64,000 nt of DNA, from NCBI RefSeq assembly GCF_022808815.1, contig NZ_JAKZLC010000003.1, positions 62,001 through 126,000 of the forward strand, given 5' to 3'. The stretch comes from Geothrix paludis (GTDB taxonomy: Bacteria; Acidobacteriota; Holophagae; Holophagales; Holophagaceae). Below the pieces are notes generated by a model. That model had not been told where the DNA came from and did not search any database. It worked only from the letters and a program-made list of their open reading frames with translations. Made by a program: the position numbers and the translations under genes. Shown one piece after another: positions 48,951-63,583 of this stretch (its first letter is position 1; each line of letters opens with the position of its first letter).

Positions 48951-51440
48951 GTGCCGCTTCGCCCGCTCCTTGCGCTGCCCGTCCTGACCTTCACCCTGGC
49001 AGCCCAGGCCCCGCCCTCCGCGCCCCTGCGCACGGGCGTGGCGGAGCCCGCGGTCCTGGACCTGCGCGCTGTGGACGGAACGCTCCTGGTGCCCCGGGAC
49101 AACCGGGACGCGACCCAGGTGGAGGCGGCCCGGCAGGGCTGGATCGCCCTGGTGGCGGGCCTGAAGGAGGCCTCCGCCGTGCGGCTGCGCCTGCCCTCCG
49201 GCGAAGGGCGCCTCTCCCTTCTGCTGGCGGCGGCCCAGGCCCTCAAGGCCCAGTCGCCGGCCCAGCGCCTCTACGTGGCCTTCGACCCCGAGGCCGCGCC
49301 CCTCCTGGACGAGACCGCCTGGGGGGCCGTGGACGGCGGCGCCCTGGTGCCCGCGGACCTGAACCTGGACCCGGCGAAGTGGCGGGCGCAGCTCACCCGG
49401 GCCCAGGACAGCTTCCCGGGCCGCCCCTGGACCCTCTGGCTGCCCTCGGATCCGGGCGCCCTGGTGTCCGTCCTCATGGGCGATGGAGGGCGGGTGGTGG
49501 TGCCTGCCGGCGGCCCCGGGGGCCGGCTGGCGGAGGCGCTGCCCGCGGGCTTCACGGACGTGGAGGGCGGGCTCGGCGACCTCACCCTCCGGAACCGCGC
49601 CGGGGCCATGCGCCGCTGGACCTTCGCGGGCGGCGCCTGGTCGGCGGTGCCCCTGCCCAAGGACCGCACGGAGGTGGCCGTCAGCGCCGCCGAGGCCTAC
49701 GACGTGGGCGCCCTGCTGGCCAAGGTCCGGGCCGCCCAGCTCCGGTCCCGCGCCATGGCGCGGACCGTCCAGGCCAAGGCGGAGCTGGACCTGCACCTCC
49801 AGGCGCCCTCGGGCCGGGGCGGGGACCTGGGCTTCAGCTTCGGCTACTTCGAGCGGGCCGGCGAGTGGCCGGAGCTGCTCCAGAAGGCCGTCCGGTTCAA
49901 CGGCGTTACCGCCAAGCTCGACGGCGAGGTGCAGCTGCCCCTCATCGAAAGCCGCCAGTCCATGTCCCTGCCCGTGGCCCTCGGCATGACCGAGCGCTAC
50001 CGCTACCGGGACAGCGGCGCCGCGGGCCCGGGCCGGCGGCGGCTGCGCTTCGAGCCGGTGGACGCGGACCCCCTGCTGTATTCCGGCGACCTGGAGGTGG
50101 AGGAGGCCACGGGGCGGATCCTGGTGGAGCGTCGGGAGCGCGCGGACCTGCCGGGCACCGTGAAGAGCGAGCGGGAAATCCTCACCTACGGCGAGGCCGC
50201 GCCGGGCCTGTGGCGGCCCGTCTCCGTGCAGACCTTCGAGCGCTGGGTGAGCGCCGATGGCGTGGTGCAGGTGCAGCGTCGCTTCACCTACCGCGATTTC
50301 CAGGTGAACGGCGAGGGTTTCGAGGCGGCGCGCGCCGAGGCCCGGGCCTCGGGAGCCACCATGATCAAGGTGACGCCGGACGGGGCCCGCTACTTCACCA
50401 GGCAGGGCGACGGCACGCGGAAGATCGAGGAGAAGCCCAAGAGCAGCGGCCGCGCCCTGGCCGGGGTGGTGCTGGCGGACCCGGGCCTCACGCCGCCGGT
50501 GGCACCCCTGGGCGGCCTCCTCTACTTCGACTACAACGCCTTCGGGAAGGGCGTGCAGCTCAACGCCCTCACGGCCATCCTCTTCAACACCGCCAGCCTG
50601 GCCATCCCCCGGGGCCTGGGCAGCTTCGACGTGAGCGCCGACGCCACGGCCCTGCTGCTCAAGGGCACGGAGCGTCCCGTGGTGAACGGGCGGCTCTCGG
50701 ACCGGGACGGCGTGGGCCGCCGCTTCGGGAAGATGGGCCTGGAGCTGGGGCGGGACCTGGGCCTGGGCTTCCGTCTGGAGGGCCGGGGCGACTTCGAGTA
50801 CGACGACTTCAGCGAGGGGGACAGCAAGTACCGCACGCCGGGCTACCAGCTGCCACCCTCGGGCCTGACCCGCATCGGCACCCTCCAGGGCTCCTGGCTC
50901 TTCCGGGGCTTCCAGGTGCGGGCCTACCACGGCTGGGGCCGCCGCCCGGACGGGACCTACGGATTGGCCGCGGATCTCCAGGAGGTCCCCGACGGGGGTG
51001 ATTTCCGCCGCTGGGGCGGCAGCCTGGGCCTGGATCGCGAGGTGTCGCCCGGGCTCTGGTTCCATGGCGAGGCCGGGTGGGCTTCGGGCCGCGCCTTCGA
51101 CCGCTTCAAGGCGCTGGATGTGGGCGGCCTGGGCGGCGTGGTGCGCATCGCCGGCATCCGGGCCAATGCCATCACGGCGGACCGGCTCTCCTATGCCAAG
51201 ACGGCCCTCGCCATCCCCACGGGACCGAACCTGCGCCTGTCCCTCAGCCTGGAGTACGCCCGGGCCCGCAGCCTGGACGACCAGAAGACCTACGGCATGG
51301 GCGGCGTCGGCGTCACAGGGGACCTGCCGGGCTTCTGGCTCTTCACCGCCGTGCGCGTGGACCTGGGCGTGGGCGTGCAGAGCGACATCGCGGGCGTCCG
51401 CACCGTGAACGGGTACGTGGCCCTGCTCAGGGTGTTCTAG
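48951..51440 (+). CDS. Large secreted protein, probable outer-membrane beta-barrel C-terminus
   Basis: 829 residues starting at GTG (48951) with GGAGG four bases upstream. Signal peptide about 1-18 (LTFTLAAQA). The N-terminal half has no known domain. The C-terminal half (about 520-829) has alternating hydrophobic strands and ends in LLRVF with a terminal Phe, the hallmark of outer-membrane barrels. No TonB box or plug domain is recognised. Function unknown. Confidence 0.75.
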   Translation: MPLRPLLALPVLTFTLAAQAPPSAPLRTGVAEPAVLDLRAVDGTLLVPRDNRDATQVEAARQGWIALVAGLKEASAVRLRLPSGEGRLSLLLAAAQALKAQSPAQRLYVAFDPEAAPLLDETAWGAVDGGALVPADLNLDPAKWRAQLTRAQDSFPGRPWTLWLPSDPGALVSVLMGDGGRVVVPAGGPGGRLAEALPAGFTDVEGGLGDLTLRNRAGAMRRWTFAGGAWSAVPLPKDRTEVAVSAAEAYDVGALLAKVRAAQLRSRAMARTVQAKAELDLHLQAPSGRGGDLGFSFGYFERAGEWPELLQKAVRFNGVTAKLDGEVQLPLIESRQSMSLPVALGMTERYRYRDSGAAGPGRRRLRFEPVDADPLLYSGDLEVEEATGRILVERRERADLPGTVKSEREILTYGEAAPGLWRPVSVQTFERWVSADGVVQVQRRFTYRDFQVNGEGFEAARAEARASGATMIKVTPDGARYFTRQGDGTRKIEEKPKSSGRALAGVVLADPGLTPPVAPLGGLLYFDYNAFGKGVQLNALTAILFNTASLAIPRGLGSFDVSADATALLLKGTERPVVNGRLSDRDGVGRRFGKMGLELGRDLGLGFRLEGRGDFEYDDFSEGDSKYRTPGYQLPPSGLTRIGTLQGSWLFRGFQVRAYHGWGRRPDGTYGLAADLQEVPDGGDFRRWGGSLGLDREVSPGLWFHGEAGWASGRAFDRFKALDVGGLGGVVRIAGIRANAITADRLSYAKTALAIPTGPNLRLSLSLEYARARSLDDQKTYGMGGVGVTGDLPGFWLFTAVRVDLGVGVQSDIAGVRTVNGYVALLRVF

Positions 51441-51473: not shown

Positions 51474-51574
51474 GATTGACCTTAAAACTCGTTTTTTAAT
51501 TTGCGGACGAGCGCCTCCGGGACCATGATGGCTGTCCTGATGTCCTTATCCGGGGCATGAGATCGGAGGTGAAC

Positions 51575-52741
51575 ATGCTGAAATGGCGCGCAACCTTCCT
51601 GACGCTGGCCGGTCTGGGCCTCGCCTTCCTGCTGGCATGCAGCGGCTCTGGCTCCGGCTCCGGCAGCGGCGGCAACGTCGCCAGCGGAAGCATGAACGTG
51701 CATCTGGTGGACGGGCCCATCTCCGGCTACCAGGAGATCAACGTCAACATCCAGGCCGTGGAGATCAACAGCAACGGCACCTGGATCACCCTGGGCACGC
51801 CCAACAAGACCATCAACCTGCTGGGCCTCGTGGGCGGCGTGGAGGAGACGCTGGCCACCGGGGCCACCCTGCCCGCGGGCCACTACGGCCAGATGCGGCT
51901 GGTGCTCGGCTCCGGCAACACCGTCAAGCTGGCCGACGGGTCCGTCCAGCCTCTCAAGGTGCCTTCGGGCATGCAGAGCGGCATCAAGCTGATCGTCAAC
52001 TTCGATGTGGCGGCCGGCACCACGAAGGACGTCTGGATCGACTTCGACGCCGCCCACTCCATCCAGGTGGTGCAGGCCGGCATGTCCGGCCAGTACATCC
52101 TGCGTCCCACCATCTGGGCCTTCGACAAGATCGCCACGGGCTCCATCCAGGGCACCTTGACGGATGCCGCCACCTCCACGGGCCTGCCCGGCGTGACGGT
52201 CTATGCCGAAACCCTGGATGGCTCCGGGAACGCCCGGATCGCGCGCAGCACCGTGACGGACGCCAATGGCGCCTACACCCTGGACCTGCTGCCGGTGGGC
52301 ACGACCTACTACGTGGTGAGCCACCCGCTGGTGGGGACCACGACCCCGAAGGCCTATGACGCCAAGGCCAGCGAGGCCTTCGCCCTGACGGCCTCGACGC
52401 CGGTGTTCACCTACAGCGCGGCCTTCACCGCGAACGCCTCCACGGGCACCGTGTCCGGCGGCCTCACGCCGCTGGCCACCAGCAGCCAGAGCGACCAGGT
52501 GAACCTGCTCCAGTCGCTGGTCACCTCCTCGGGCACCTTCAGCTTCATCGTGCGCACCACCATGGCCGTCGTGGGCACCACGGAGACCTACGGCTTCACC
52601 ACCGTTCCGGTCGGGACCTACAGTGTCCAGGCCGTGCGGAGCACCTTGAACCTGGATGGCACCACCACCACGACCACCTCGACCGTGCAGCCCGCCACAG
52701 TGACCGCGAGCACGACAACGACCGTGAACCTGGGGCTCTGA
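51575..52741 (+). CDS. DUF4382 domain lipoprotein, copy 1
   Basis: 388 residues. Signal peptide with lipobox LLAC at C22, then a Ser/Gly linker. DUF4382 domain about 45-190 (MNVHLVDGPISGYQEINVNI, then LPAGHYGQMRL). A carboxypeptidase-regulatory-like repeat follows (about 195-270, GLPGVTVYAETLDGS), and a Thr-rich C-terminus. The ATG at 51575 has GGAGGT six bases upstream. A close paralogue is at 62429-63583. Outer surface or periplasmic; molecular function unknown. Confidence 0.9.
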   Translation: MLKWRATFLTLAGLGLAFLLACSGSGSGSGSGGNVASGSMNVHLVDGPISGYQEINVNIQAVEINSNGTWITLGTPNKTINLLGLVGGVEETLATGATLPAGHYGQMRLVLGSGNTVKLADGSVQPLKVPSGMQSGIKLIVNFDVAAGTTKDVWIDFDAAHSIQVVQAGMSGQYILRPTIWAFDKIATGSIQGTLTDAATSTGLPGVTVYAETLDGSGNARIARSTVTDANGAYTLDLLPVGTTYYVVSHPLVGTTTPKAYDAKASEAFALTASTPVFTYSAAFTANASTGTVSGGLTPLATSSQSDQVNLLQSLVTSSGTFSFIVRTTMAVVGTTETYGFTTVPVGTYSVQAVRSTLNLDGTTTTTTSTVQPATVTASTTTTVNLGL

Positions 52742-52793: not shown

Positions 52794-52962
52794 CCTTGTC
52801 CGCGGGGCCGGGCCTCCCGTCCGCATCGGTTTTGAAGACACGCCCGGGTTGGGAGTAGCATGGGCCCAACCGACCCCGGCCCATCTGATGACGAGCCCCT
52901 ACCCGGGTGCCCCAGCCAAAACCTGAGCCGCCGGGCTCGTTTCCTGAACCCGGAGCGTGCAG

Positions 52963-54924
52963 ATGCTGGATGTGGCCTTGGTCCTCGCGTCCTCCGGGTG
53001 CTGGTTCGCGGGGGCCCTGGCCTCGGCCTCCCCGCGCGCGCCGGAGCGCCTGGCCACGGGCCTCGGCCTCCTGGGCAGTCTCTTCGCCCTGGGCGCGGCG
53101 CTCCACCTCCTGCTCGGGGGGGCCGTCTCGGGCCTGGACTTCCGCGTCTGGGGCCTCCCGGCCCGCCTGGAGCTGGATGCCCTGTCCGCGGCCTTCCTGC
53201 TGCCCCTGCACCTGGTGGGCGGCCTGGGCCTGATCTACGGGCAGCGCTACTGGCCGGTGCAGCTGGCCTGGGGCTCGGGCCGATCCCTGCGCTTCTTCTA
53301 CGGCCTGCTGGTGGCGGCCATGACGCTGCTCTTCCTGGCCCGGCACGGCCTGGTGTTCCTGGTGGCCTGGGAGCTGATGGCCGTGTCCGCCTTCTTCCTG
53401 GTGGGCACCGAGCACGAGAAGCCGGAGGTCCGGCGCGCCAGCTGGGTCTACCTGGCCTGCACCCACACGGGCACCCTGCTTCTGACCGCCATGGTGATCC
53501 TCATGGCCCAGCGGATGGGGGGCCTCCAGTGGACGGCCCTTCCGGCTTCCACCTCGCCCTGGTTCGAAGGCGGCATCCTCTTCCTGGCCCTCGCGGGCTT
53601 CGGCTTCAAGGCGGGGGTGCTGCCCCTGCACTTCTGGCTGCCTTCGGCCCACGCCAGCGCCCCCAGCCACGTCTCTGCCATCCTCTCGGCGGTGATGCTC
53701 AAGACGGGCATCTACGGCATCCTCCGCGTGTCAAGCCTATTGCCAGGCATCCCCCGGGGCGTGGGCGGGACGCTCCTGGCCCTGGGCGCCCTCACCGCCC
53801 TCTACGGCGTGGGGAACGCGCTGGCCCAGCGGGACTACAAGCGGCTGCTGGCCTACTCCAGCATCGAGAACCTGGGGATCATCGCCATGGGCGTGGGGCT
53901 GGGCTGGACGGGCCGGGCTACGCACGATCCCTGGCTCATGGCCCTGGGCTTCGGCGGGGCGATCTTCCACGTCTGGAACCACGCCCTCTTCAAGAGCCTC
54001 CTCTTCTACGGAGCCGGGGCCCTGTTGCACGCCACGGGCACCCGGGACATGGAGGCGCTGGGCGGCCTGGCGCGGCGGATGCCCCGCACGGCCCTGGTGG
54101 TCTTCCCGGCGGTGCTGGCGGTGGCGGCCCTGCCGCCCTTCAACGCCTTCCTGAGCGAGTGGTTCCTCTACCGGGGCCTCTTCGCCTCCCTGGGTCGGGG
54201 CTATCCCTGGTCCGCGGCCCTCGGCCTGGTGGCCCTGGCCCTGGCGGGGGGGCTGGCGGCGGTGGCCTTCGCGCGGTTCTTCGGCACCCTCTTCCTGGGT
54301 GCGCCCCGGAGCGAGTTGGCGGATCACGCTCACGACCCCGCCGCCTCCATGCTGCTGCCCATGGCCGTCCTGGCGGGGCTCTGCCTGGCGGTGGGTTTGG
54401 GGGCCTTCCTGCTGCTGCCCCTGCTGGACCGGGTGATCGCGGCGGCGGCCCCTGGGACGCCAGCCCTGCTGGCCGCGGGTCTCCGCGTGGACTTCCACCG
54501 GCTGGCCGGGGTGGAGCTGGGCCTGCTGGCCCTCGTCGGGGCGGGTCTCGCCTGGCTGCGCCGATCGCCCGAGGCGCCGGAGGCGGACCTTCCCACCTGG
54601 GACTGCGGCTACGCCGCGGCCGTGGCCCGGGCCCAGTACACGGGCAGCTCCTTCGCGGATGCGTGGGCGCCGGTCCAGCCGGGCCTGCGGGCGCGGCGGC
54701 CGCGCCTCCGGGGGCTCTTCCCGGGCGGGGCCTCCTTCCGCCAGGCCTTCCGGGAGCCCTTCGGCGAGGTGTTCCTGGAGCCGCGGGTGGTCCGGGTGGC
54801 GGAGCGCCTGCTCCGGTTCCGGCGCTTCCAGCAGGGTCACCTCCCGGTCTACCTCCTCTATGTGCTGCTGACCCTCCTGGGCACCTTCCTCTGGATGCTA
54901 CTGCGGGGGAGGCTGCTGGGATGA
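52963..54924 (+). CDS. hyfB: HyfB-like proton-antiporter-type membrane subunit 1
   Basis: 653 residues, about 16 hydrophobic helices; homologue of HyfB/HycC and complex I NuoL. Key pump residues are present: Glu in AWELMAV and Lys in GFGFKAGVLPLH, plus an SSIENLGI helix. C-terminal LPTWDCGY motif and long soluble tail are typical of HyfB. The ATG at 52963 has GGAG upstream; a GTG at 52957 is possible. First gene of the operon; overlaps the next by four bases. Inner membrane; expected to move H+ or Na+. Confidence 0.9.
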   Translation: MLDVALVLASSGCWFAGALASASPRAPERLATGLGLLGSLFALGAALHLLLGGAVSGLDFRVWGLPARLELDALSAAFLLPLHLVGGLGLIYGQRYWPVQLAWGSGRSLRFFYGLLVAAMTLLFLARHGLVFLVAWELMAVSAFFLVGTEHEKPEVRRASWVYLACTHTGTLLLTAMVILMAQRMGGLQWTALPASTSPWFEGGILFLALAGFGFKAGVLPLHFWLPSAHASAPSHVSAILSAVMLKTGIYGILRVSSLLPGIPRGVGGTLLALGALTALYGVGNALAQRDYKRLLAYSSIENLGIIAMGVGLGWTGRATHDPWLMALGFGGAIFHVWNHALFKSLLFYGAGALLHATGTRDMEALGGLARRMPRTALVVFPAVLAVAALPPFNAFLSEWFLYRGLFASLGRGYPWSAALGLVALALAGGLAAVAFARFFGTLFLGAPRSELADHAHDPAASMLLPMAVLAGLCLAVGLGAFLLLPLLDRVIAAAAPGTPALLAAGLRVDFHRLAGVELGLLALVGAGLAWLRRSPEAPEADLPTWDCGYAAAVARAQYTGSSFADAWAPVQPGLRARRPRLRGLFPGGASFRQAFREPFGEVFLEPRVVRVAERLLRFRRFQQGHLPVYLLYVLLTLLGTFLWMLLRGRLLG

Positions 54925-56876
54925 GCCTCGCCCTCCTCGCCCTGCTGGTCGCGGCGGTCTCCGGCGTGCCGGGGCTGTTCCTGCGGCGGCGGGGCGGGGA
55001 GGTGGCAGCGGGCCTGCTGGGCCTGGCGGCGGTCCTGGGCCTGATGGCCGCCCTGCGGGTGCTGGCCGGGGGGGCTGGCGGGGCCCTCCAACTCCGTACC
55101 GCGGCGCTGGGATCACCGGGGCTCCTGGTGCTGGATCCGCTCGCGGCCTTCTTCTCCATTCCGGTGCTGCTGCTCTCGTTCTGCGGGGGGCTCTACGCCG
55201 TGGGCTACTGGGAGGGTCACCGGGGGCACACGCCGATTCTGCGTCTGGTCTTCGGATTCCTGACGGCCTCGCTGCTGATGCTGGTGATGGCGTCCCACGC
55301 CCTGACCTTCCTGCTGGCCTGGGAGGGCATGGCCATCGCCGCCTTCCTGCTGGTGATGGCCGAGGACCGCGAGCCCGAGACCCGGCGGGCGGGCTGGATC
55401 TACCTGGCGGCGACGCACACGGGTACGTTGTTCCTCTTCGCGGCCTTCGCGCTGCTGGCCAAGGTCCAGGGCCACTCGGGGTTCGGCGCCCTGCCCGCGG
55501 GCCTCGCGGCCACCCGCGGAGGCACGGCCCTCTTCGCGCTGTTCCTGCTGGGTTTCGGCTTCAAGGCCGGCGTCCTGCCGCTGCACGTCTGGTTGCCACC
55601 GGCCCACGCCGCCGCCCCCAGCCACGTCTCCGCGCTGATGTCGGGCGTGCTGCTCAAGATGGGCATCCTGGGGATCATCCGCTTCCTCTCCTGGGTGCCG
55701 GACCCTCCACCCTGGTGGGGCGGGACGCTGGTGGCGCTGGGCGCCCTGTCCGGCATCCTCGGCGTGGCCTTCGCCCTGGGCCAGCACGACCTGAAGCGCC
55801 TGCTGGCGTATCACTCCATCGAGAACATCGGGATCATCCTGCTGGGCCTGGGGCTGGGCACCCTCGGCAAGGCCACGGGCCATCCCGCGATGCAGGCCCT
55901 GGGCTATGCCGGGGCCCTGCTCCACGTGGTGAACCACAGCCTGTTCAAGGGCCTGCTGTTCCTGTCGGCGGGGTCCGTGCTGCACGCCACGGGCACGCGC
56001 GATCTGGAGCGCCTGGGCGGCCTGGGGCGGACGATGCCCTGGACGTCGGCCGCGTTCCTGGCCGGGTCCTGGGCCATCTGCGGCCTGCCGCCCCTCAACG
56101 GCTTCGTGAGCGAGTTCCTCATCTACCTGGGCGCCTTCCGGGGCCTGGGCCTCGAGCTCGGGCTGGGCCGGCAGGCCTGGCCGCTGGTCATCCTCGTCTC
56201 CCTCGCCCTCATCGGGGCCCTGGCCCTGGCCTGCTTCGCCAAGGCCTTCGGCGCGGTCTTCCTGGGGCTGCCTCGGACTCAGGCGGCGCAACAGGCGCCG
56301 GAAGCGCCGCGCAGCATGCTCCTGCCCATGGGTCTGCTGGCCCTGGCCTGCCTGGCCATCGGCGTGGTGCCCGCCCTCTTCGCGCCGGCCCTGGGGCGGG
56401 TGGTCGGCTTGGTCGGGGGGGCGCCGGCAGGTGGCGAGGCGCTCGTGGCGCTGGCTCCCCTGCGCATGCTGACCTGGGCGGCCCTGGTCCTGGGGCTCCT
56501 GACCCTCCTGCTCGGGCGCTGGCTCCGCCTGGTGCCGCAAGGGAGGGACTTGCCCACCTGGGACTGCGGCTACGCGGCGGCGGACGCGCGGATGCAGTAC
56601 ACCGCATCCTCCTTCGCGGACGGCCTGGTCAGGGGCCTCCGCTGGGCCCTGCGGCCCGTGGCGCACCTTCCCCGCCTCGTGGGCTGGTTCCCCCGTCCGG
56701 CGCGGTACGAAAGCCATGTGCCGGATCCGGCCCTGGACCGGGCAGCCTCGCCCGCGCTTCAGCTCGCCGTGCGCGGCGCCGGCCTCCTCCGCGTGGCCCA
56801 GGGCGGGGCGCTGCCCGTCTACCTGCTCTACGTCCTGCTCACCCTGCTCGCGCTCCTGGTCTGGATGGTGGCCTGA
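54921..56876 (+). CDS. hyfB: HyfB-like proton-antiporter-type membrane subunit 2
   Basis: 651 residues, tandem paralogue of the preceding gene. Same signatures: Glu in AWEGMAI, Lys in GFGFKAGVLPLHVWLPPAHA, HSIENIGI, and the C-terminal LPTWDCGYAAADAR. It starts with ATGA overlapping the first copy. Two HyfB-type subunits in tandem are unusual, as Hyf has one HyfB plus HyfD and HyfF. This copy may take the HyfD position. Confidence 0.9.
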   Translation: MSLALLALLVAAVSGVPGLFLRRRGGEVAAGLLGLAAVLGLMAALRVLAGGAGGALQLRTAALGSPGLLVLDPLAAFFSIPVLLLSFCGGLYAVGYWEGHRGHTPILRLVFGFLTASLLMLVMASHALTFLLAWEGMAIAAFLLVMAEDREPETRRAGWIYLAATHTGTLFLFAAFALLAKVQGHSGFGALPAGLAATRGGTALFALFLLGFGFKAGVLPLHVWLPPAHAAAPSHVSALMSGVLLKMGILGIIRFLSWVPDPPPWWGGTLVALGALSGILGVAFALGQHDLKRLLAYHSIENIGIILLGLGLGTLGKATGHPAMQALGYAGALLHVVNHSLFKGLLFLSAGSVLHATGTRDLERLGGLGRTMPWTSAAFLAGSWAICGLPPLNGFVSEFLIYLGAFRGLGLELGLGRQAWPLVILVSLALIGALALACFAKAFGAVFLGLPRTQAAQQAPEAPRSMLLPMGLLALACLAIGVVPALFAPALGRVVGLVGGAPAGGEALVALAPLRMLTWAALVLGLLTLLLGRWLRLVPQGRDLPTWDCGYAAADARMQYTASSFADGLVRGLRWALRPVAHLPRLVGWFPRPARYESHVPDPALDRAASPALQLAVRGAGLLRVAQGGALPVYLLYVLLTLLALLVWMVA

Positions 56877-56877
56877 C

Positions 56878-57852
56878 ATGGTTCGATCCCTGCTCCCGAC
56901 AACGCTCCCGACAACGCTTCCGGTGATGCTCCCGGCGATGCTCCCGGCGATGCTCCAGTTCCTGCTGCACGGGCTCACCGTGCTGCTGCTGCCGCCCCTG
57001 ATCCCGGGCCTCATCGCCAAGACCAAGGCCCTGATGGCCGGCCGGCAGGGCCCGCCGGTGCTCCAGCTCTACTACGACCTGGCCAAGCTCGCCCGCAAGC
57101 AGGCCGTCTTCAGCCGCACCACCACCTGGGTGTTCCTCGCCGGCCCGGTGGGGGGCGTGGCCGCCGGCCTGGTGGCCTCCTGCCTGGTGCCCTTCGGCCA
57201 CACGCCGGCGCCGGTCTCCTTCCAGGGCGACGTCATCCTCTTCGCCTACCTCTTCGGGCTGGCCCGCTTCCTCACGATCCTCTCGGCACTCGACACGGGC
57301 TCCAGCTTCGAGGGCATGGGCGCGGCGCGTGAAGCCACCTTCTCGGCCCTGGCGGAACCCGCGCTGTTCCTGGGCTTCGCGGCCCTGGCCAAGGCCAACG
57401 GCAGCCTCTCGCTGGGAACGATGCTGGCCTTCCCGGGCAGCCTCACGACCCGCTTCACGGGACCCCTGATCCTCATCCTGGCGGGCTGGGTGATCGTCTA
57501 CCTGGCGGAGAACTCGCGCATCCCCGTGGACGACCCCAACACCCACCTGGAGCTCACCATGATCCACGAGGTGATGGTGCTCGACCACTCGGGTCGCCCC
57601 CTCGCCCTGGTGCTCTACGGCGCCAGCCTCAAGCTCCTGGTGCTGGGCGCGCTCATCCTGACGCCGGCCCTTCCGCGCGCGCCCCACGCCTGGCAAAACT
57701 GGCTGGCGTTCTATGCGGCCCTGGGGGGCCTGGCCGTGGGAGTGGGCGTGGTGGAGAGCTCCATGGCCCGGTTCCGCATGACCAAGGTTCCGCAGTTCCT
57801 CGTGGCCGGGGTGCTGGCCACCGCCTTCGCCTTCCTCCTGATGCTGGTGTAG
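56878..57852 (+). CDS. hyfC: HyfC/NuoH-like membrane subunit
   Basis: 324 residues, about eight helices. NuoH-like loops that dock the soluble arm are present: the [20 protein letters not shown] region and [20 protein letters not shown]. The N-terminus has a repetitive [20 protein letters not shown] stretch, coded by five 12-bp DNA repeats. One base separates it from the preceding stop. Its expected job is to link electron transfer in HyfG and the NuoB-like subunit to ion movement in the membrane. Confidence 0.92.
56892..56951 (+). repeat. Five in-frame 12-bp tandem repeats in hyfC
   Basis: Units GCTCCCGACAAC x2, GCTTCCGGTGAT, then GCTCCCGGCGAT x2. The period of 12 keeps the frame and encodes a repeating Leu-Pro-x-x pattern at residues 6-25, before the first membrane helix. 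Slipped-strand copy-number change here would alter only the N-terminus. Confidence 0.9.
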
Positions 57853-57854
57853 CC

Positions 57855-58490
57855 ATGCTGCCCGACCTGCTCATCGCCCTCACCATGCTGTCCAACTTCA
57901 GCCTCGTGGCCACGAGCCGCGTGGCCAAGGCCATTCAGTTCGCCGTGCTCCAGGGCGTGCTGCTGGGCCTGATGCCCCTGGCCATGGGCCTGGGCCGCCA
58001 CTTCCACATCATCCTGCTGGCCATCGCGGCGGTCGCGGTGAAGGGCTGGCTCATCCCCTTCCTGTTCCGCCGCGCCCTGAAGCAGGTCCACATCCAGCGC
58101 GAGGTGGATCCCTACATCGGCTACACGGTCTCGCTCATGCTCTGTGCCCTGGGCACGGGCCTCAGCCTGCTCCTGGCCCACAACCTGCCGCTGAAGCCGG
58201 GCACGGAGTACGTGCTGATGGTGCCGGCCTCGCTGGCGACGCTGTTCACGGGCTTCCTGCTGCTGGTGTCCCGCCGAAAGGCCCTCACCCAGGTGGTGGG
58301 CTACCTGGTGCTGGAGAACGGCATCTACCTCTTCGGCCTCCTGCTGGTGGAGGACATGCCGGCCCTGGTGGAGGCGGGCATCCTGCTGGACCTCTTCGTG
58401 GGCATCTTCGTGATGGGCATCGTCATCAACCACATCCGCGTGGCCTTCGATTCCACCGACACCCGGCACCTGGCCGAGCTGAAGGACTGA
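57855..58490 (+). CDS. hyfE: HyfE-like membrane subunit
   Basis: 211 residues with about seven helices, fitting HyfE, a NuoK-related subunit of the group 4 hydrogenase superfamily. Typical segments: LVATSRVAKAIQFAVLQG, the GWLIPFLFRRAL loop and YLVLENGIYLFGL, with a buried Glu. Two bases separate it from hyfC and three from hyfF. Confidence 0.9.
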   Translation: MLPDLLIALTMLSNFSLVATSRVAKAIQFAVLQGVLLGLMPLAMGLGRHFHIILLAIAAVAVKGWLIPFLFRRALKQVHIQREVDPYIGYTVSLMLCALGTGLSLLLAHNLPLKPGTEYVLMVPASLATLFTGFLLLVSRRKALTQVVGYLVLENGIYLFGLLLVEDMPALVEAGILLDLFVGIFVMGIVINHIRVAFDSTDTRHLAELKD

Positions 58491-58493
58491 CCC

Positions 58494-59951
58494 ATGGCCT
58501 GGCTGCTCATCCTCGTCCCCCTCCTGGCCGCCGCCCTGGCCTTCGCCGTGTCATCCCCCGCCCTCCGCGCCTGGATCCTGCCGGCCGTGGGCGTCGTCCA
58601 CCTGGGGCTGCTGCTCGTGGCCCTCGCGGGCTGGCGCACCCTGCCTGCCACCGCCTGGTTCGGCCTCGACGCCCTGGGCGGCTGGGTGCTGCTGGTGATC
58701 AGCGTCCTCTTCTGCATCTGCGCCTTCTACGCCCCGGCCTACCTGGCCCTGCGCCCGGACCGCGACCACCGCGTGCTTGCCACCTGCCTCCTGGGCTTCC
58801 TGGGCCTGGCCTCGCTGCTGGCCCAGGCCCGCCACCCCGGCATTGCCTGGGTGGCCATGGAGACCACCACCCTGGTCAGCGCGCCGCTGATCTACTTCAA
58901 CCACAACCGCCGCTCCCTGGAGGCCACCTGGAAGTACCTGGTCATCGGCTCCGTGGGCATCGCCCTGGCGCTGCTGGGCACCCTGTTCATCGCCTACGCG
59001 GCGCACATGGGCGGACTGGAGGAGCCGCTGCGCTACACGCGGCTCGTGGAGAACGCCTCCCTGCTATCGCGGCCCTGGCTGCGGGCGGGCTTCGTGCTGA
59101 CGCTGGTGGGCTACGGCACCAAGATGGGCCTGGCGCCCCTGCACACCTGGAAGCCGGACGCCTATGGCGAGACGCCGGGCATTGTTGGAGCTCTCCTGGC
59201 GGGCGGCGTCACCAGCTGCGCGTTCCTGGCCCTGCTGCGGATCTACGGCGTGGTGGCGGCGGCGGGCGAGGGGGCCTTCGCCCGGGAGCTGCTGGTGGCC
59301 TTCGGCATGCTCTCCATGGCCTGGGCCCTGGTCTTCATGATCCGGCAGACCGACATCAAGCGGATGCTGGCCTACTCCAGCGTGGAGCACATGGGCATCC
59401 TCGTCTTCGGCATCGGCATCGGGGGCCTGGCGGCGAAGTTCGCCCTCTTCCATCTGGCGGCCAACGCCCTGGTGAAGAGCGTGCTCTTCCTATCGGCGGG
59501 CAATATCCACCGCAGCTACGCCAGCAAGCAGCTGCCCTTCGTCACCGGCGCCCTTCGGCGCACGCCGGTATCCGGCTGGCTCTTCCTCCTGGCCTTCCTG
59601 GCCATCACGGGCATGCCGCCCTTCGCGCCCTTCCTCAGCGAGTTCAGCATCGCCTCGGGGGCCCTGGGCACCGGCCACCTCGCCAGCGGCGCCGCCTTCC
59701 TCGTCCTGCTGGGCGGCATCTTCCTCGCCATGAGCGAAACGGTGGTGAAGGTGGTCTTCGGCACGCCCAGCGCCCAGCGGGTCCGCACCCCCTACAAGGA
59801 TGCGCCGGCCACCACGGCGCCCCTCATCGTGGCGCTGGCCCTGGCCCTGGTCTTGGGCATCTGGCTGCCCCGGCCCCTCCAGGCCATGCTCGACCACGCG
59901 AGCACCACCGCCGAGGGCCTCCGATCCGCCCACCTGGAGGTGCGGCCATGA
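58494..59951 (+). CDS. hyfF: HyfF-like proton-antiporter-type membrane subunit
   Basis: 485 residues, 13-14 helices; NuoL/N/MrpD relative of the HyfF type. Pump residues are present: Glu in AMETTTLVSAPL and Lys in GYGTKMGLAPLHTWKPDAY, plus YSSVEHMGI. This is the third antiporter-like subunit of the complex. It overlaps hyfG by four bases (ATGA). Confidence 0.92.
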   Translation: MAWLLILVPLLAAALAFAVSSPALRAWILPAVGVVHLGLLLVALAGWRTLPATAWFGLDALGGWVLLVISVLFCICAFYAPAYLALRPDRDHRVLATCLLGFLGLASLLAQARHPGIAWVAMETTTLVSAPLIYFNHNRRSLEATWKYLVIGSVGIALALLGTLFIAYAAHMGGLEEPLRYTRLVENASLLSRPWLRAGFVLTLVGYGTKMGLAPLHTWKPDAYGETPGIVGALLAGGVTSCAFLALLRIYGVVAAAGEGAFARELLVAFGMLSMAWALVFMIRQTDIKRMLAYSSVEHMGILVFGIGIGGLAAKFALFHLAANALVKSVLFLSAGNIHRSYASKQLPFVTGALRRTPVSGWLFLLAFLAITGMPPFAPFLSEFSIASGALGTGHLASGAAFLVLLGGIFLAMSETVVKVVFGTPSAQRVRTPYKDAPATTAPLIVALALALVLGIWLPRPLQAMLDHASTTAEGLRSAHLEVRP

Positions 59952-61462
59952 ACGCCAATCTCCCGATCCTCCGCAATGGCCAGCGCCTGCCCCTGCGGGA
60001 GGTGCCCGAGCTGCCCATTGGCGAGTTCCGCGAGGCCATCCTGCGGCGCGTGCAGGAAGGGGACCGCCTCGCCTGCCTGTGCGCCGGCTTCGACCTGCAG
60101 CTCATGGCGGTGCTGGCCGACGATGCGGGGCACGCGCTCCGCGTCCTCCGCACGAAGCTGGAGGCGCCCCGCTATCCCGCCCTCACGCCCGACTGCCCCC
60201 AGGCCCACCTCTTCGAGCGGGAGATCGCCGAGCAGACCGGCATCGTCCCCGAAGGCCATCCCTGGCTGAAACCCGTCCGCTTCCACCTGCCCTGGACCGG
60301 CGCGCCCGATCCGTGGAAACGGAACGGGGCGCCGATTCCCGGCGCGGCGGACTTCTACCGCGTGGAGGGCGAGGAGGTCCACGAGGTGGCCGTGGGGCCC
60401 GTCCACGCGGGCGTCATCGAGCCCGGGCACTTCCGCTTCCAGTGCCACGGCGAGCGGGTCTTCCACCTGGAGATCGCCCTGGGCTACCAGCACCGCGGAC
60501 TTGAGAAGGCCCTGATCGGCGGTCCCCATCCCCTCAGCCTCAAGCAGGCGGAGACCATCGCAGGGGACAGCAGCATCGCCCACGTCTGGGCCTACTGCCG
60601 CCTGCTGGAGGGCCTGGCGGACGTCCAGGTGCCGGAGCGCGTGGACCTGGTGCGGGGCGTGGCCCTGGAGCTGGAGCGCGCCGCCAACCATGTGGGCGAT
60701 CTGGGCGCCCTGTCCGGCGATGTGGGCTTCCTGCCCACGGCGTCCTTCTGCGGGCGCATCCGCGGTGACTGGCTGAACCTGAGCGCCGAGGGCTGTGGCA
60801 GTCGCCTGGGCCGGGACTGGCTGCGGCCGGGCGGGTTGCGCCAGGACCTGGAGCCGGCGCGGGCCGCCGCCATGCGGCCGCGCCTGGCGCGCGCCTGGGC
60901 GGACACGAAGGACGCGGTGGAGCTGCTCTGGGGCGCGGCTTCCGTGATGATCCGCTTCGAGGCGGCGGGCCGCGTGGATCCCGACCAGGCGCGCCAGATC
61001 GGGCTGGTGGGCGTGGCGGCGCGGGCCTGCGGCCTGGGTCGCGATGCTCGCCGCGACCATCCGTTCGGTCCCTACGGGATACGGCCCCTTCCTGTGGCGC
61101 AGGCCGAGAGCGGCAACGTGCACTCCCGGGCCTGGGTGCGTTGGCTGGAGCTGGGCGAGAGCTCGCGCTTCCTCGCCGCGGCCCTGGCCGCTCTGACGGA
61201 AAGCGAAGTCGATCCCAGGCCCCGGCCCCTGCCGCCGCGGGCCCCGGAACACCTGTGCGTCTCGCTCACGGAGGGCTGGCGCGGCGAGGTGCTGCACCTG
61301 GCCTGGACCGATGCCCAGGGGCGCTTCGCCCGCTACAAGGTCGTGGATCCCTCCTTCCACAACTGGTTCGGGTTGGCCCTGGCGCTGCGGGGCGAGCAGG
61401 TTTCCGACTTCCCCCTGTGCAACAAGAGCTTCAACCTCTCCTACTGCGGGCACGACCTATGA
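59948..61462 (+). CDS. hyfG: HyfG-like large subunit (NuoC-NuoD fusion) without NiFe ligands
   Basis: 504 residues. N-terminal NuoC-like domain about 1-130; NuoD/NiFe-large-subunit-like domain about 145-504 (YQHRGLEKAL at 180-189, then LELERAANHVGD). In true group 4 hydrogenases two CxxC pairs bind NiFe. Here the first site reads ETIAGDSSIAH (202-212) with no Cys, and the second reads PLCNKSFNLSYCGHDL (489-504) with C491 and C500 but no CxxC. The protein also lacks the cleaved C-terminal extension. It is therefore an Ehr-type subunit and not a hydrogenase; its redox partner is unknown, with quinone or another carrier possible. Confidence 0.88.
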   Translation: MNANLPILRNGQRLPLREVPELPIGEFREAILRRVQEGDRLACLCAGFDLQLMAVLADDAGHALRVLRTKLEAPRYPALTPDCPQAHLFEREIAEQTGIVPEGHPWLKPVRFHLPWTGAPDPWKRNGAPIPGAADFYRVEGEEVHEVAVGPVHAGVIEPGHFRFQCHGERVFHLEIALGYQHRGLEKALIGGPHPLSLKQAETIAGDSSIAHVWAYCRLLEGLADVQVPERVDLVRGVALELERAANHVGDLGALSGDVGFLPTASFCGRIRGDWLNLSAEGCGSRLGRDWLRPGGLRQDLEPARAAAMRPRLARAWADTKDAVELLWGAASVMIRFEAAGRVDPDQARQIGLVGVAARACGLGRDARRDHPFGPYGIRPLPVAQAESGNVHSRAWVRWLELGESSRFLAAALAALTESEVDPRPRPLPPRAPEHLCVSLTEGWRGEVLHLAWTDAQGRFARYKVVDPSFHNWFGLALALRGEQVSDFPLCNKSFNLSYCGHDL

Positions 61463-62286
61463 TCCACATCCTGCTCTCCCGCTGGCGCCAGGGGTATCGC
61501 ACCTTGCCCTATCCGAAGGCGCTGCCCGCGCTGCCCGAGCGGTTCAGAGGCCGGCCGAAGATCCATCCGGAGCGCTGCGCCGAAAGCTACTCCGGGGGCT
61601 GCCGGGCCTGCGCGGAAGCCTGCCCCACCGAGGCCATCACGGTCGGAGCCGCGGGTCCGCGCATTGATCTGGGCCGCTGTCTCTTCTGCCCCGACTGTGT
61701 GGAGGCCTGCCCCGAGGGCGCCATCGAATACACCGGGGAGCACCGCCTTGCCACCCGGACGCGGGAGGACCTGAGCCTGGACGCTGCGGAGGAATACCGG
61801 CTGGCGGCGGCCCTGGACGGGGAGATGAAGCGGCTCTTCGGCCGGTCGCTCAAGCTCCGGGTGGTGAGCGCCGGCGGCTGCAACGGCTGCGAGGTGGACG
61901 TGAACGTGCTGGGCACCCTGGCCTGGGACCTGGGCCGCTTCGGCATCCAGTACGTGGCCTCGCCGCGCCACGCCGATGGCTTGCTTCTCTGCGGGCCCGT
62001 AACGAAGAACATGGAGCTGGCCGTGCGCAAGACCTACGACGCCATCCCGGGGCCCAAGCTCGTCATCGCCGTGGGGGCCTGCGCCATCGCCGGCGGGCCC
62101 TACCACCGGCAGGAGGAGCAGCTCGGCGGCGCCGCGAGCGTGGTGCCCGTGGACCTCTTCATTCCCGGCTGCCCGCCCCACCCGCTGACCATCCTGGATG
62201 GCATGCTGCGCCTGCTGGGGCGGATCGGAACCAATGGCCGAGATGGAACTAGGTCTTTGGATGGGGGCGAAACGTCACAAAAATAG
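61459..62286 (+). CDS. Fused ferredoxin and NuoB-like small subunit
   Basis: 275 residues. N-terminal 2[4Fe-4S] ferredoxin-like region, with C40, C48, C51, C55 for one cluster (unusual seven-residue first gap) and C74, C77, C80, C84 for the other. A NuoB/HyfI-like domain spans about 130-250 and has C141, C144, C208 and C238 as ligands of the proximal [4Fe-4S] cluster. In Hyf the HyfH and HyfI proteins are separate; here they are one polypeptide. It overlaps hyfG by four bases and ends the operon. Cytoplasmic face of the membrane. Confidence 0.88.
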   Translation: MIHILLSRWRQGYRTLPYPKALPALPERFRGRPKIHPERCAESYSGGCRACAEACPTEAITVGAAGPRIDLGRCLFCPDCVEACPEGAIEYTGEHRLATRTREDLSLDAAEEYRLAAALDGEMKRLFGRSLKLRVVSAGGCNGCEVDVNVLGTLAWDLGRFGIQYVASPRHADGLLLCGPVTKNMELAVRKTYDAIPGPKLVIAVGACAIAGGPYHRQEEQLGGAASVVPVDLFIPGCPPHPLTILDGMLRLLGRIGTNGRDGTRSLDGGETSQK

Positions 62287-62428: not shown

Positions 62429-63583
62429 ATGAGCCGTTGGCGTGGATTAACCATCGTTGTTTTGGCAACCCTGGGATTGGCGTTCCTGATGGCCTGCGGG
62501 GGCTCGTCGGGCTCCAGCACCGGCACCATGAATGTCCACCTGGTGGACGGCCCCATCACGGGCTACCAGGAGGTGAATGTCCACATCCAGTCCGTGGAGA
62601 TCAGCGGCAATGGCGGCTGGATCACCCTCGGAACCCCGGACAAGACCTACAACCTGCTGAGCCTCACCGGCGGCGTGAGCGAGATGCTGGCCGCGGGGAC
62701 CACCCTGCCCGCAGGCCACTACCAGCAGATGCGGCTGATCCTCGGAGCGGGCAACACCGTGAAGCTGGCGGATGGCAGCGTCCAGCCCCTCACCGTGCCT
62801 TCGGGCCTCCAGTCGGGCGTCAAGCTGATCGTGAGCTTCGACGTGATGGCCGGCACCACGAAGGACGTGTGGATCGACTTCGACGCGGCCCACTCCATCC
62901 AGGTGGTGCAGGCCGGGATGTCCAACCAGTACCTCCTCCGTCCCACGGTCTGGGCCTACGACAAGATCGTCACCGGCTCCATCTCCGGGAAGCTGACGGA
63001 TGCCGCGACCTCCACGGGTCTGGCCGGCGCCGTGGTTTATGCGGAGACCCTGGACACCACGGGGAACGCCCGGATCGCGCGCAGCGCCACCACGGACGCC
63101 ACCGGCGCGTACACCTTGGACCTCCTGCCCGTGGGCGCCACCTACTACGTGGTGAGCCAGCCCGTGCTGGGAACCACCACGCCGAAGGCCTATGACGCCA
63201 AGGCCAGCGACGGCTATGCCCTCAGCGCGGCCACGCCGGTCTTCACCTACAACGCGGCCTTCACCGCGGACGCGGCCACCGGCGGCGTATCCGGCGGCCT
63301 GACGCCTGTGGCCACCAGCAGCCAGAGCGACGCCGTGAACCTGCTCCAGACCCTGGCCGCGCCGACCTCGGGCAGCTTCGCCTTCATCGTGGACAGCGCC
63401 ATGGCCACCGTGGCGACCTCCACCGAGACCTATGCCTTCGCGACGGTGCCGGCGGGTCTCTACAGCGTCCAGGCGGTGCGGGCCACGCTGAACCTGGATG
63501 GCACCACCACGGTGACCTCCTCTACCCTCCAGCCCGCCACCGTGACGACCGGGCTCACCGTGACCGTGAACCTGGGGCTCTGA
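62429..63583 (+). CDS. DUF4382 domain lipoprotein, copy 2
   Basis: 384 residues, paralogue of 51575-52741 with the same domain order: lipobox LMAC at C23, DUF4382 (about 40-185), carboxypeptidase-regulatory-like repeat and Thr-rich tail. Much of the sequence is identical (for example TTKDVWIDFDAAHSIQVVQA in both). GAGGAGG precedes the ATG at 62429. The upstream 142 bases (62287-62428) are AT-rich, as before copy 1, and probably carry its promoter. Function unknown. Confidence 0.9.
   Translation: MSRWRGLTIVVLATLGLAFLMACGGSSGSSTGTMNVHLVDGPITGYQEVNVHIQSVEISGNGGWITLGTPDKTYNLLSLTGGVSEMLAAGTTLPAGHYQQMRLILGAGNTVKLADGSVQPLTVPSGLQSGVKLIVSFDVMAGTTKDVWIDFDAAHSIQVVQAGMSNQYLLRPTVWAYDKIVTGSISGKLTDAATSTGLAGAVVYAETLDTTGNARIARSATTDATGAYTLDLLPVGATYYVVSQPVLGTTTPKAYDAKASDGYALSAATPVFTYNAAFTADAATGGVSGGLTPVATSSQSDAVNLLQTLAAPTSGSFAFIVDSAMATVATSTETYAFATVPAGLYSVQAVRATLNLDGTTTVTSSTLQPATVTTGLTVTVNLGL

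Follow-up and report, generated by a model that had tools for sequence, protein, structure and literature searches.

The seven-gene Hyf-like operon at positions 52957-62286 of the window (the whole 64,000-nucleotide stretch of Geothrix paludis DNA analyzed here) encodes a complex of the already known Ehr kind, identified by comparison with published descriptions of Ehr; named Geobacteraceae members (L140 and L157) share a clade with its large subunit, EhrL. EhrL has lost the four cysteine ligands of the NiFe site. We give a probability of about one half to the reading that the complex would be a ferredoxin-fed ion pump reducing an acceptor, probably not a quinone, in a rebuilt EhrL pocket. The operon and the two genes that flank it are arranged as follows.

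51557-52741, + strand: DUF4382 and CarboxypepD_reg protein, left copy of a direct-repeat pair flanking the operon (Pfam DUF4382, 1.1e-34)
52957-54924, + strand: HyfB-like antiporter-type subunit, copy 1 (Pfam Proton_antipo_M, 3.2e-49; NCBIfam hydrogenase 4 subunit B, 4.4e-149, under the curated cut-off)
54921-56876, + strand: HyfB-like antiporter-type subunit, copy 2 (Pfam Proton_antipo_M, 1.5e-55; NCBIfam HyfB, 8.2e-163, under the cut-off)
56878-57852, + strand: HyfC/NuoH-like membrane anchor (Pfam NADHdh, 6.1e-30; start placed from the stop of the preceding gene)
57855-58490, + strand: HyfE-like membrane subunit (NCBIfam hydrogenase 4 membrane subunit, 3.9e-23, under the cut-off)
58494-59951, + strand: HyfF-like antiporter-type subunit (Pfam Proton_antipo_M, 3.3e-43; NCBIfam HyfF, 5.1e-86, under the cut-off)
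59948-61462, + strand: EhrL, large subunit resembling HyfG/HycE, NiFe cysteines lost (AGDS at 205-208, NLSYCGHDL at 496-504)
61459-62286, + strand: fused HyfH-HyfI (Pfam Oxidored_q6, 3.5e-26, and Fer4 families)
62429-63583, + strand: DUF4382 protein, right copy of the repeat pair (Pfam DUF4382, 1.1e-33; probable start, the open reading frame being listed from 62198)

The EhrL reading frame specifies 504 amino acids with Pfam matches to Complex1_49kDa (2.6e-29) and Complex1_30kDa (1.9e-7). Its closest solved structure is E. coli HycE, both by sequence (7z0s_E, 1.7e-44) and by predicted fold (TM-score 0.87); the loop at 151-165, which faces the pocket, is poorly modeled (pLDDT below 50). In an alignment to HycE and HyfG, where the reference motifs are RVCGICGFAH and DPCYSCTDR, the four ligand columns of EhrL hold A205, S208, S498, and G501. 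CGxC has thus become AGDS and CxxC has become SYCG, and the group 4 [NiFe] signature (RxCGxC plus DPCxxC) is absent. The original prediction had placed a cysteine-free first motif, ETIAGDSSIAH, at 202-212 and had reported the second CxxC as gone, and both statements hold: C491 and C500 lie outside the ligand columns, C500 falling between the two lost cysteines of the second motif. It had also recognized a group 4 (Hyf/Hyc) gene context, and we find two HyfB-like subunits, HyfC, HyfE, HyfF, and the fused HyfH-HyfI around EhrL. The fold, the subunit set, and the E158 and H212 columns are shared with E. coli formate hydrogenlyase and hydrogenase 4; unlike HycE and HyfG, EhrL lacks the four NiFe cysteines and the C-terminal extension, and unlike E. 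coli Hyf/FHL, no HyfA or formate dehydrogenase was found in the window.

The loss extends well beyond this genome. Clade A, to which EhrL belongs, comprises 117 distinct sequences (the window protein included) from about a dozen phyla; L042, L056 (which has an in-frame TAG), L057, L077, and L078 were left out of the alignment, L056 and L057 were left out of the residue counts, and the identical pair L097/L126 was counted once. Not one of the 117 has all four NiFe cysteines or even more than one of the four, a lone cysteine occurring at column 205 in six sequences. The replacing residues are fixed: G206 and D207 are found in 117/117, and S498 and G501 in 116/116 rows that reach those columns (the truncated L115 ends short of columns 487-501). 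E158, at the column of MbhL E21, survives in 116 of the 117 sequences. The 12 cluster cysteines of HyfH-HyfI are each found in 106-114 of 117 rows; duplicates were kept in these counts, and there may be further overlap between the named and unnamed collections. The dN/dS of EhrL against seven congeners is 0.14-0.22, and pairwise values over all seven operon genes run from 0.08 to 0.28, indicating purifying selection. Since no clade A member keeps more than one cysteine and EhrL evolves under such constraint, the loss of the NiFe site is neither decay nor a sequencing error, the latter being ruled out by 117 distinct sequences.

Genome content agrees with a complex that has no NiFe center. No hypD, a gene of NiFe assembly, was found in the window's own genome (96.65% complete), and HypD is absent from nine of the 12 genomes of the genus that carry EhrL, this one included; with HypD as the marker, the Hyp maturation set expected with group 4 enzymes appears to be missing. 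EhrL must be dispensable, since 9/21 genus genomes lack it.

The tree, built from 40 of 117 clade A rows and, for a second cysteine-less set (clade B), from 14 of 15 rows, bears on whether EhrL falls inside the active hydrogenases, a placement that would have counted against the original prediction. In part it does, being nested within group 4 beside cousins that have all four cysteines; its own clade, in contrast, consists of NiFe-less proteins only. Together with the nearness of HycE in sequence and fold, this makes the Ehr label apt. Because the four-cysteine cousins separate the two cysteine-less clades, the tree suggests that the NiFe ligands were lost twice. A single loss uniting NiFe-less clades A, B, and D3 is disfavored (AU p = 0.033, in a comparison of two trees with the group defined after the first). 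Three Acidobacteriota cousins (L069, L072, and L075) share with the window HAGxIEPGHFRF, NKSF, the long HyfC loop (longer by three residues in the operon's anchor), and the gene order B-C-E-F-G-I, but only one HyfB was detected in them. Unlike the window protein they keep CGxC and CxxC; HypD occurs in 3/3 of their genomes, and their ferredoxin-domain cysteines are partly gone. Our guess, drawn from the placement of Ehr close to group 4f in PMC10284858, is that these three may be group 4f. Whatever their name, the four-cysteine cousins offer a natural before-and-after pair for a hydrogenase turning into another enzyme, a kind of step by which complex I, too, has been proposed to have arisen. 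Clade B, separate from the window's clade A, may correspond by gene order to the Mycobacterium tuberculosis Rv0081-Rv0087 type (gene names from PMC6901956); several of its loci have the order small subunit, HyfB, C, E, F, G, some with an upstream ArsR-type gene (one confirmed by Pfam).

We suspect that reduced ferredoxin would deliver electrons to the two-cluster domain of HyfH-HyfI, from which they would move on to the proximal [4Fe-4S] cluster and, from there, reach a compound held in the EhrL pocket at the former NiFe position. That pocket would be formed by A205, D207, S/T208, S498, and G501, and would retain E158 as a proton-delivery glutamate. Because there is no NiFe, the acceptor would not be a proton. 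HyfC would link the redox reaction to ion pumping, carried out by the two HyfB-like subunits and HyfF. The parts for such a route are present. The fused HyfH-HyfI has the cysteines of a two-[4Fe-4S] ferredoxin domain (C40, C48, C51, C55; C74, C77, C80, C84) and of the small-subunit proximal cluster (C141, C144, C208, C238), although which cysteine serves which cluster is a presumptive assignment. By eye, both HyfB-like copies retain their helix Glu and Lys residues, and the three antiporter-like subunits their key charged residues. POR-type proteins, which reduce ferredoxin, are encoded in 21/21 genus genomes. Ehr complexes cannot all depend on ferredoxin input, since Geobacter argillaceus (L140) lacks the first-cluster ferredoxin cysteines and, among 13 small subunits of clade B that were compared, most have no such domain.

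The nature of the acceptor is where the alternatives diverge. A ferredoxin:menaquinone oxidoreductase, with the quinone in the chamber under the proximal cluster and bound by residues differing from those of complex I, is possible though unlikely. Ferredoxin has a potential far below that of menaquinone, and the reaction would therefore be energetically sound; the complex is closely related to NuoD, NuoB, and NuoH of complex I, and the genome encodes MqnA/D, so that the acceptor could be a quinone here. Quinone reduction was also considered for FDH-Ehr in PMC6349859. However, the columns of Nqo4 H38 and Y87, which PMC7684303 names as quinone residues, hold I157 and G206 in 117/117 clade A rows; E. 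coli NuoCD and one NuoD of the same genome have the H and Y, and the small subunit here has CNGC instead of the adjacent CC of complex I. The Ehr-bearing Riflemargulisbacteria, as PMC6349859 describes them, are without a full quinone pathway. Neither MenD nor MqnA/D, which mark the two menaquinone pathways, was found in 12 of 18 clade A carriers, a hand-picked set favoring phyla possibly without quinones, of which 17 are of unstated completeness and mostly metagenome-assembled, so that absence may reflect assembly gaps. UbiA, matched in 17/18, was too unspecific to serve as a marker.

Archaeal MBS, which we take to be the complex formerly called Mbx, suggests another reading, improbable in our estimation, in which polysulfide or sulfane sulfur would be reduced at the proximal cluster. 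The Pyrococcus furiosus enzyme, a NiFe-less group 4 relative of known reaction and structure, takes its electrons from ferredoxin and has antiporter-type pumps (PMC7684303); in EhrL, too, the NiFe cavity is vacant. But MBS reduces polysulfide with E21 lost and a cluster loop three residues shorter that leaves only three cysteine ligands (PMC7684303), whereas EhrL retains E158 and the CNGC of HyfH-HyfI is in gapless register with MbhJ, the protein against which the loop was judged. Taken together, these residue comparisons indicate that the acceptor is probably neither quinone nor polysulfide. Electrons might instead come from a molybdenum formate dehydrogenase, as PMC6349859 proposes for other phyla, and the genome does encode one FdhA-type protein above the TIGR01591 cut-off. 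Its gene lies on another contig (C2, the operon being on C3), FdhA above cut-off occurs in 9/12 genus carriers yet also in 4/9 non-carriers, and searches with the genus FdhA and E. coli HyfA (E 1e-8) found no relative in 120 clade A loci, window included and many of them short. That FdhA query does find a match in each of the four Hyf-like loci that keep the four cysteines (L099-L101 and L104). With no association in the genus or in the clade A flanks, we find such a partnership very unlikely. Very unlikely too, and a shade more so than a formate dehydrogenase partner, is a decayed or non-redox remnant working as ion channel or antiporter only; the catalytic metal site is gone and the operon is patchy in the genus (12/21), but the conservation of cluster cysteines and new pocket residues over many phyla, and the constraint on all seven genes, argue against it.

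To the ferredoxin-fed pump with a probably non-quinone acceptor we would add a more tentative proposal, one we consider somewhat doubtful as a whole: that the pocket was rebuilt in an ancient lineage, spanning about a dozen phyla, as an active site of its own (GD[ST] with H212; N-L-S-Y-x-G-x-D) for a soluble compound that is neither quinone nor sulfur, or for another cofactor, that outside the window's family a dedicated HTH-EIIA phosphotransfer regulator would be linked to its expression, and that the reaction would be an undescribed respiratory one. The regulator accompanies clade A in 19/28 carrier genomes outside the window's family and in 0/28 non-carriers; the carriers are 28 of 29 (G100 left out), and the non-carriers were taken from the top of the genome list, not at random. 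Our literature search, a weak one confined to open-licence texts, found no recognized link between an EIIA-type regulator and Ehr, no experimental function for Ehr, and no biochemistry for any member.

Undescribed energy metabolism, as the original prediction had it, was too strong a phrase. Ehr is widespread and already in print, its function called unknown in PMC4378227 and PMC10284858 and the subject of hypotheses in PMC6349859; published Ehr likewise has a Hyf/Nuo-type operon and a group 4-like large subunit and lacks the CxxC motifs, with no essential difference from the complex described here. To that description we add the two HyfB copies, the HyfH-HyfI fusion, the fixed replacement motifs, the HTH-EIIA regulator outside the window's family, and many carriers without HypD. 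Further additions, as read from sequence, are the joint absence of the quinone residues and the MBS pattern, the selected carriers without menaquinone markers, the suggestion of two losses, and the HTH-EIIA companion. Ill-fitting acceptors, a pocket fixed in the manner of an active site, hypD-less carriers, and a clade-linked regulator turn a vague question about Ehr into a short list of tests.

Sigma-54 control of the Hyf/Hyc kind was considered and rejected: the window holds 9 two-mismatch sites where 29 are expected by chance, and the only two in the operon span (53665, minus strand, and 55003) are intragenic. The left and right DUF4382 copies that flank the operon are 81.4% identical in DNA over 1072 bp.

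The window locus is a genuine Ehr (energy-converting hydrogenase related) complex, a kind already known. Its operon comprises seven genes on one strand, neighbors overlapping or lying a few bases apart:

52957-54924, +, HyfB-like, copy 1
54921-56876, +, HyfB-like, copy 2
about 56878-57852, +, HyfC-like
57855-58490, +, HyfE
58494-59951, +, HyfF
59948-61462, +, EhrL, the large subunit (504 residues; 30-kDa [NuoC-like] and 49-kDa [NuoD-like] domains)
61459-62286, +, fused HyfH-HyfI

By eye, the helix Glu and Lys residues of HyfB/HyfF are retained in all three antiporter-type subunits. Of the 12 cluster cysteines in the fused HyfH-HyfI, eight are positioned for two [4Fe-4S] clusters and the other four for the proximal one; every one of them is retained in 106-114 of 117 rows (duplicates included) from clade A, the NiFe-less EhrL clade that holds the window protein. 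The first-cluster cysteines are missing in Geobacter argillaceus (L140). Small subunits of clade B, another NiFe-less set, mostly have no ferredoxin domain, and keep the proximal four cysteines in all 13 rows. Whereas the complex I small subunit has an adjacent CC, the window protein has CNGC, which aligns without gaps with MbhJ of a related hydrogenase, in contrast also to the shortened cluster loop that PMC7684303 describes for MBS, the archaeal NiFe-less polysulfide reductase.

E. coli HycE (7z0s_E) is both the top solved relative of EhrL by sequence search (E 1.7e-44) and the top structural match (TM-score 0.87 by query length) of a model built on a 34-sequence alignment (mean pLDDT 89.5). 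In an alignment with HycE and HyfG, A205 and S208 occupy the ligand positions of CGxC, the first motif, and S498 and G501 those of CxxC, the second, with C500 between the latter's two lost cysteine columns. The original prediction, that this protein has lost its NiFe site, gave coordinates and residues correctly: the ligand cysteines are replaced.

Of the 117 distinct clade A sequences, 103 have A at position 205, 8 have S and 6 have C (L119 and five of the window's congeners); at position 208, 90 have T, 23 S, 3 A and 1 V. None carries more than one ligand cysteine. Since column 205 varies among A, S and C even within the genus, the ligand is no longer selected there. Adjoining this drifting column, G206 and D207 are invariant (117/117 each); S498 and G501 each occur in all 116 rows having those columns, and D503, E158 and H212 in 117, 116 and 115 of the 117. 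Eighty-six columns are fixed (at least 95%) in clades A and B, of which 11 differ from L069, L072 and L075, the four-cysteine cousins; four of the 11 (207, 496, 498 and 501) fall in the two ligand loops, a pattern that, with as few as three cousins, is suggestive only. In pairwise comparison with seven congeners, EhrL has dN/dS values of 0.14-0.22, within 0.08-0.28 over all seven operon genes. EhrL is not decayed.

In a tree of 75 sequences with both NiFe motifs excised, clade A (40 rows) is monophyletic (bootstrap/SH-aLRT 100/99) and groups with clade B (97/93), all NiFe-less, clade B itself being non-monophyletic. The sister of this group is the cousins (99/94); outside lies a third NiFe-less clade, D3 (L102, L103, L105, L106; union 100/100), and beyond it HycE/HyfG and other group 4 enzymes. 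The union of the four sets is also supported by a HyfC loop that they share in the rows shown and that exceeds the loop of other group 4 members by three residues. A tree constrained to unite A, B and D3 is worse by 7.6 log units (AU p = 0.033), and because this constraint is disfavored the tree weakly favors two separate losses of the NiFe site, the alternative being one loss followed by a regain. The cousins sit in Ehr-like operons, and their large subunit has all four NiFe cysteines and terminates at CTDR with no extension; they are possibly active hydrogenases adjoining Ehr. Several clade B loci share gene order with M. tuberculosis Rv0082-Rv0087 (gene names from PMC6901956). Outside the tree sample, the clade B type motif, cysteines missing, occurs in three named plasmid-borne genes: those of Rhizobium johnstonii pRL11 and Rhodococcus sp. 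ZPP are annotated NADH-quinone oxidoreductase subunit C, and that of Azospirillum thermophilum (L196:8740-10305) nickel-dependent hydrogenase large subunit, yet it has no cysteine motifs.

Ehr needs no NiFe assembly; carriers without HypD exist. HypD was not found in the window's own genome (96.65% complete), and is missing from 9 of 12 genus carriers, own genome included, and from 13 of 36 carriers tested overall. All three genomes that hold one of the four-cysteine cousins have it, and the search matched 26 of 44 genomes and 4 of 14 controls.

MBS and complex I, as described in PMC7684303, supply residue tests for the acceptor. The Nqo4 H38 and Y87 columns, in a register taken from the structure-relative search alignment, hold I157 and G206 in 117/117 clade A rows; E. 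coli NuoCD and one NuoD of the own genome have H and Y at these quinone columns. MBS has lost the MbhL E21 column, whereas clade A keeps it (E158). Neither MenD nor MqnA/D, searched as markers of the two menaquinone pathways, was found in 12 of 18 genomes, comprising the own genome, which has MqnA/D, and 17 carriers titled outside Acidobacteriota, which we picked with a leaning toward groups likely to be quinone-free and whose completeness is not stated. In L185 and L190, which belong to these 12, H212 is replaced as well.

A formate dehydrogenase might be the partner of Ehr: FdhA exceeds its cut-off in 9/12 genus carriers versus 4/9 non-carriers, the own-genome gene lying on a contig other than the operon's. 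Against this, FdhA occurs in those genus non-carriers too, and the 120 clade A loci, window included and many of them short, hold no relatives of genus FdhA or E. coli HyfA; the same FdhA query does match in each of the four Hyf-like loci that keep four cysteines (L099-L101, L104). Such a partner is thus unsupported, and we consider it very improbable, slightly more so after this locus search. POR-type proteins are present in 21/21 genus genomes. We favor, at a probability of about one half, a mechanism in which electrons would enter from ferredoxin, pass three clusters and reach the rebuilt EhrL pocket, where the acceptor is probably not a quinone, their transfer being coupled to pumping.

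Among the matches listed, EhrL is matched at 47% identity or more (a cut-off we chose from the match table) in at least 43 of 297 phylum genomes, a few as fragments; 12 of 21 sampled genus genomes carry it. A scan of named genomes gave at least 80 loci among the matches listed, relatives making up 582 of 584 candidate stretches, with titles including Geothrix and Holophagaceae, Planctomycetota, Myxococcales, Verrucomicrobia, Lentisphaerae, Treponema, Elusimicrobia, Omnitrophota, Geobacter and Geomonas, Fibrobacteres, Chloroflexi, Nitrospinales and others; the closest named record listed is a Geothrix MAG (77% identity), which makes Geothrix or a neighboring genus of Holophagaceae the probable source of the window. 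In L056 (G043:C30), omitted from counts, the EhrL gene is interrupted by one in-frame TAG, through either genuine breakage or misassembly.

Often upstream of or within clade A operons is a gene fusing HTH_17 to PTS_EIIA_2 (domain content from three examples scanned by Pfam):

L095:3869-4543, example of this regulator, which about 50 other clade A loci from many phyla also have

It occurs in 51 of the 83 clade A loci having at least 1.5 kb upstream (duplicates retained) and in 0/22 comparison loci (other groups and the own complex I); half of the 32 loci without it (16: L079-L090, L092, L112, L114, L115) belong to the window's family or bear a Holophagaceae name. Outside that family, 19 of 28 clade A carriers (of 29, omitting G100) have a full-length match, two of these matches with one stop, and one further carrier has a partial match at a contig end; 0/28 non-carriers, taken from the top of the match list rather than at random, match at full length, and six match in the EIIA part alone. 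The phospho-histidine column is H in 60/65. We found no published link between this regulator and Ehr in the open-licence literature. A single-sequence search with no positive control found none in the own genome, so the regulator is apparently dispensable there.

The operon is bracketed by two DUF4382 genes (51557-52741 and 62429-63583), which form direct repeats and are 81.4% identical in DNA sequence over 1072 bp. The corresponding site was inspected in four of nine genus non-carriers. G027 and G053 (completeness rating 100% in both) share the upstream gene with the window, followed by a single DUF4382 gene, about 1.9 kb of other DNA and the same downstream genes; recombination between the repeats (loss), or gain, would explain these empty sites. 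In G087 the flanking genes are present about 5 kb apart, with DUF4382 absent there, and in G190 the match to the window region resumes further downstream. Upstream of the left DUF4382 gene, 48951-51440 encodes an 829-aa protein with no Pfam match, which has a relative in all 12 genus genomes that were searched, truncated in one and almost full length in the other 11, operon present or not.
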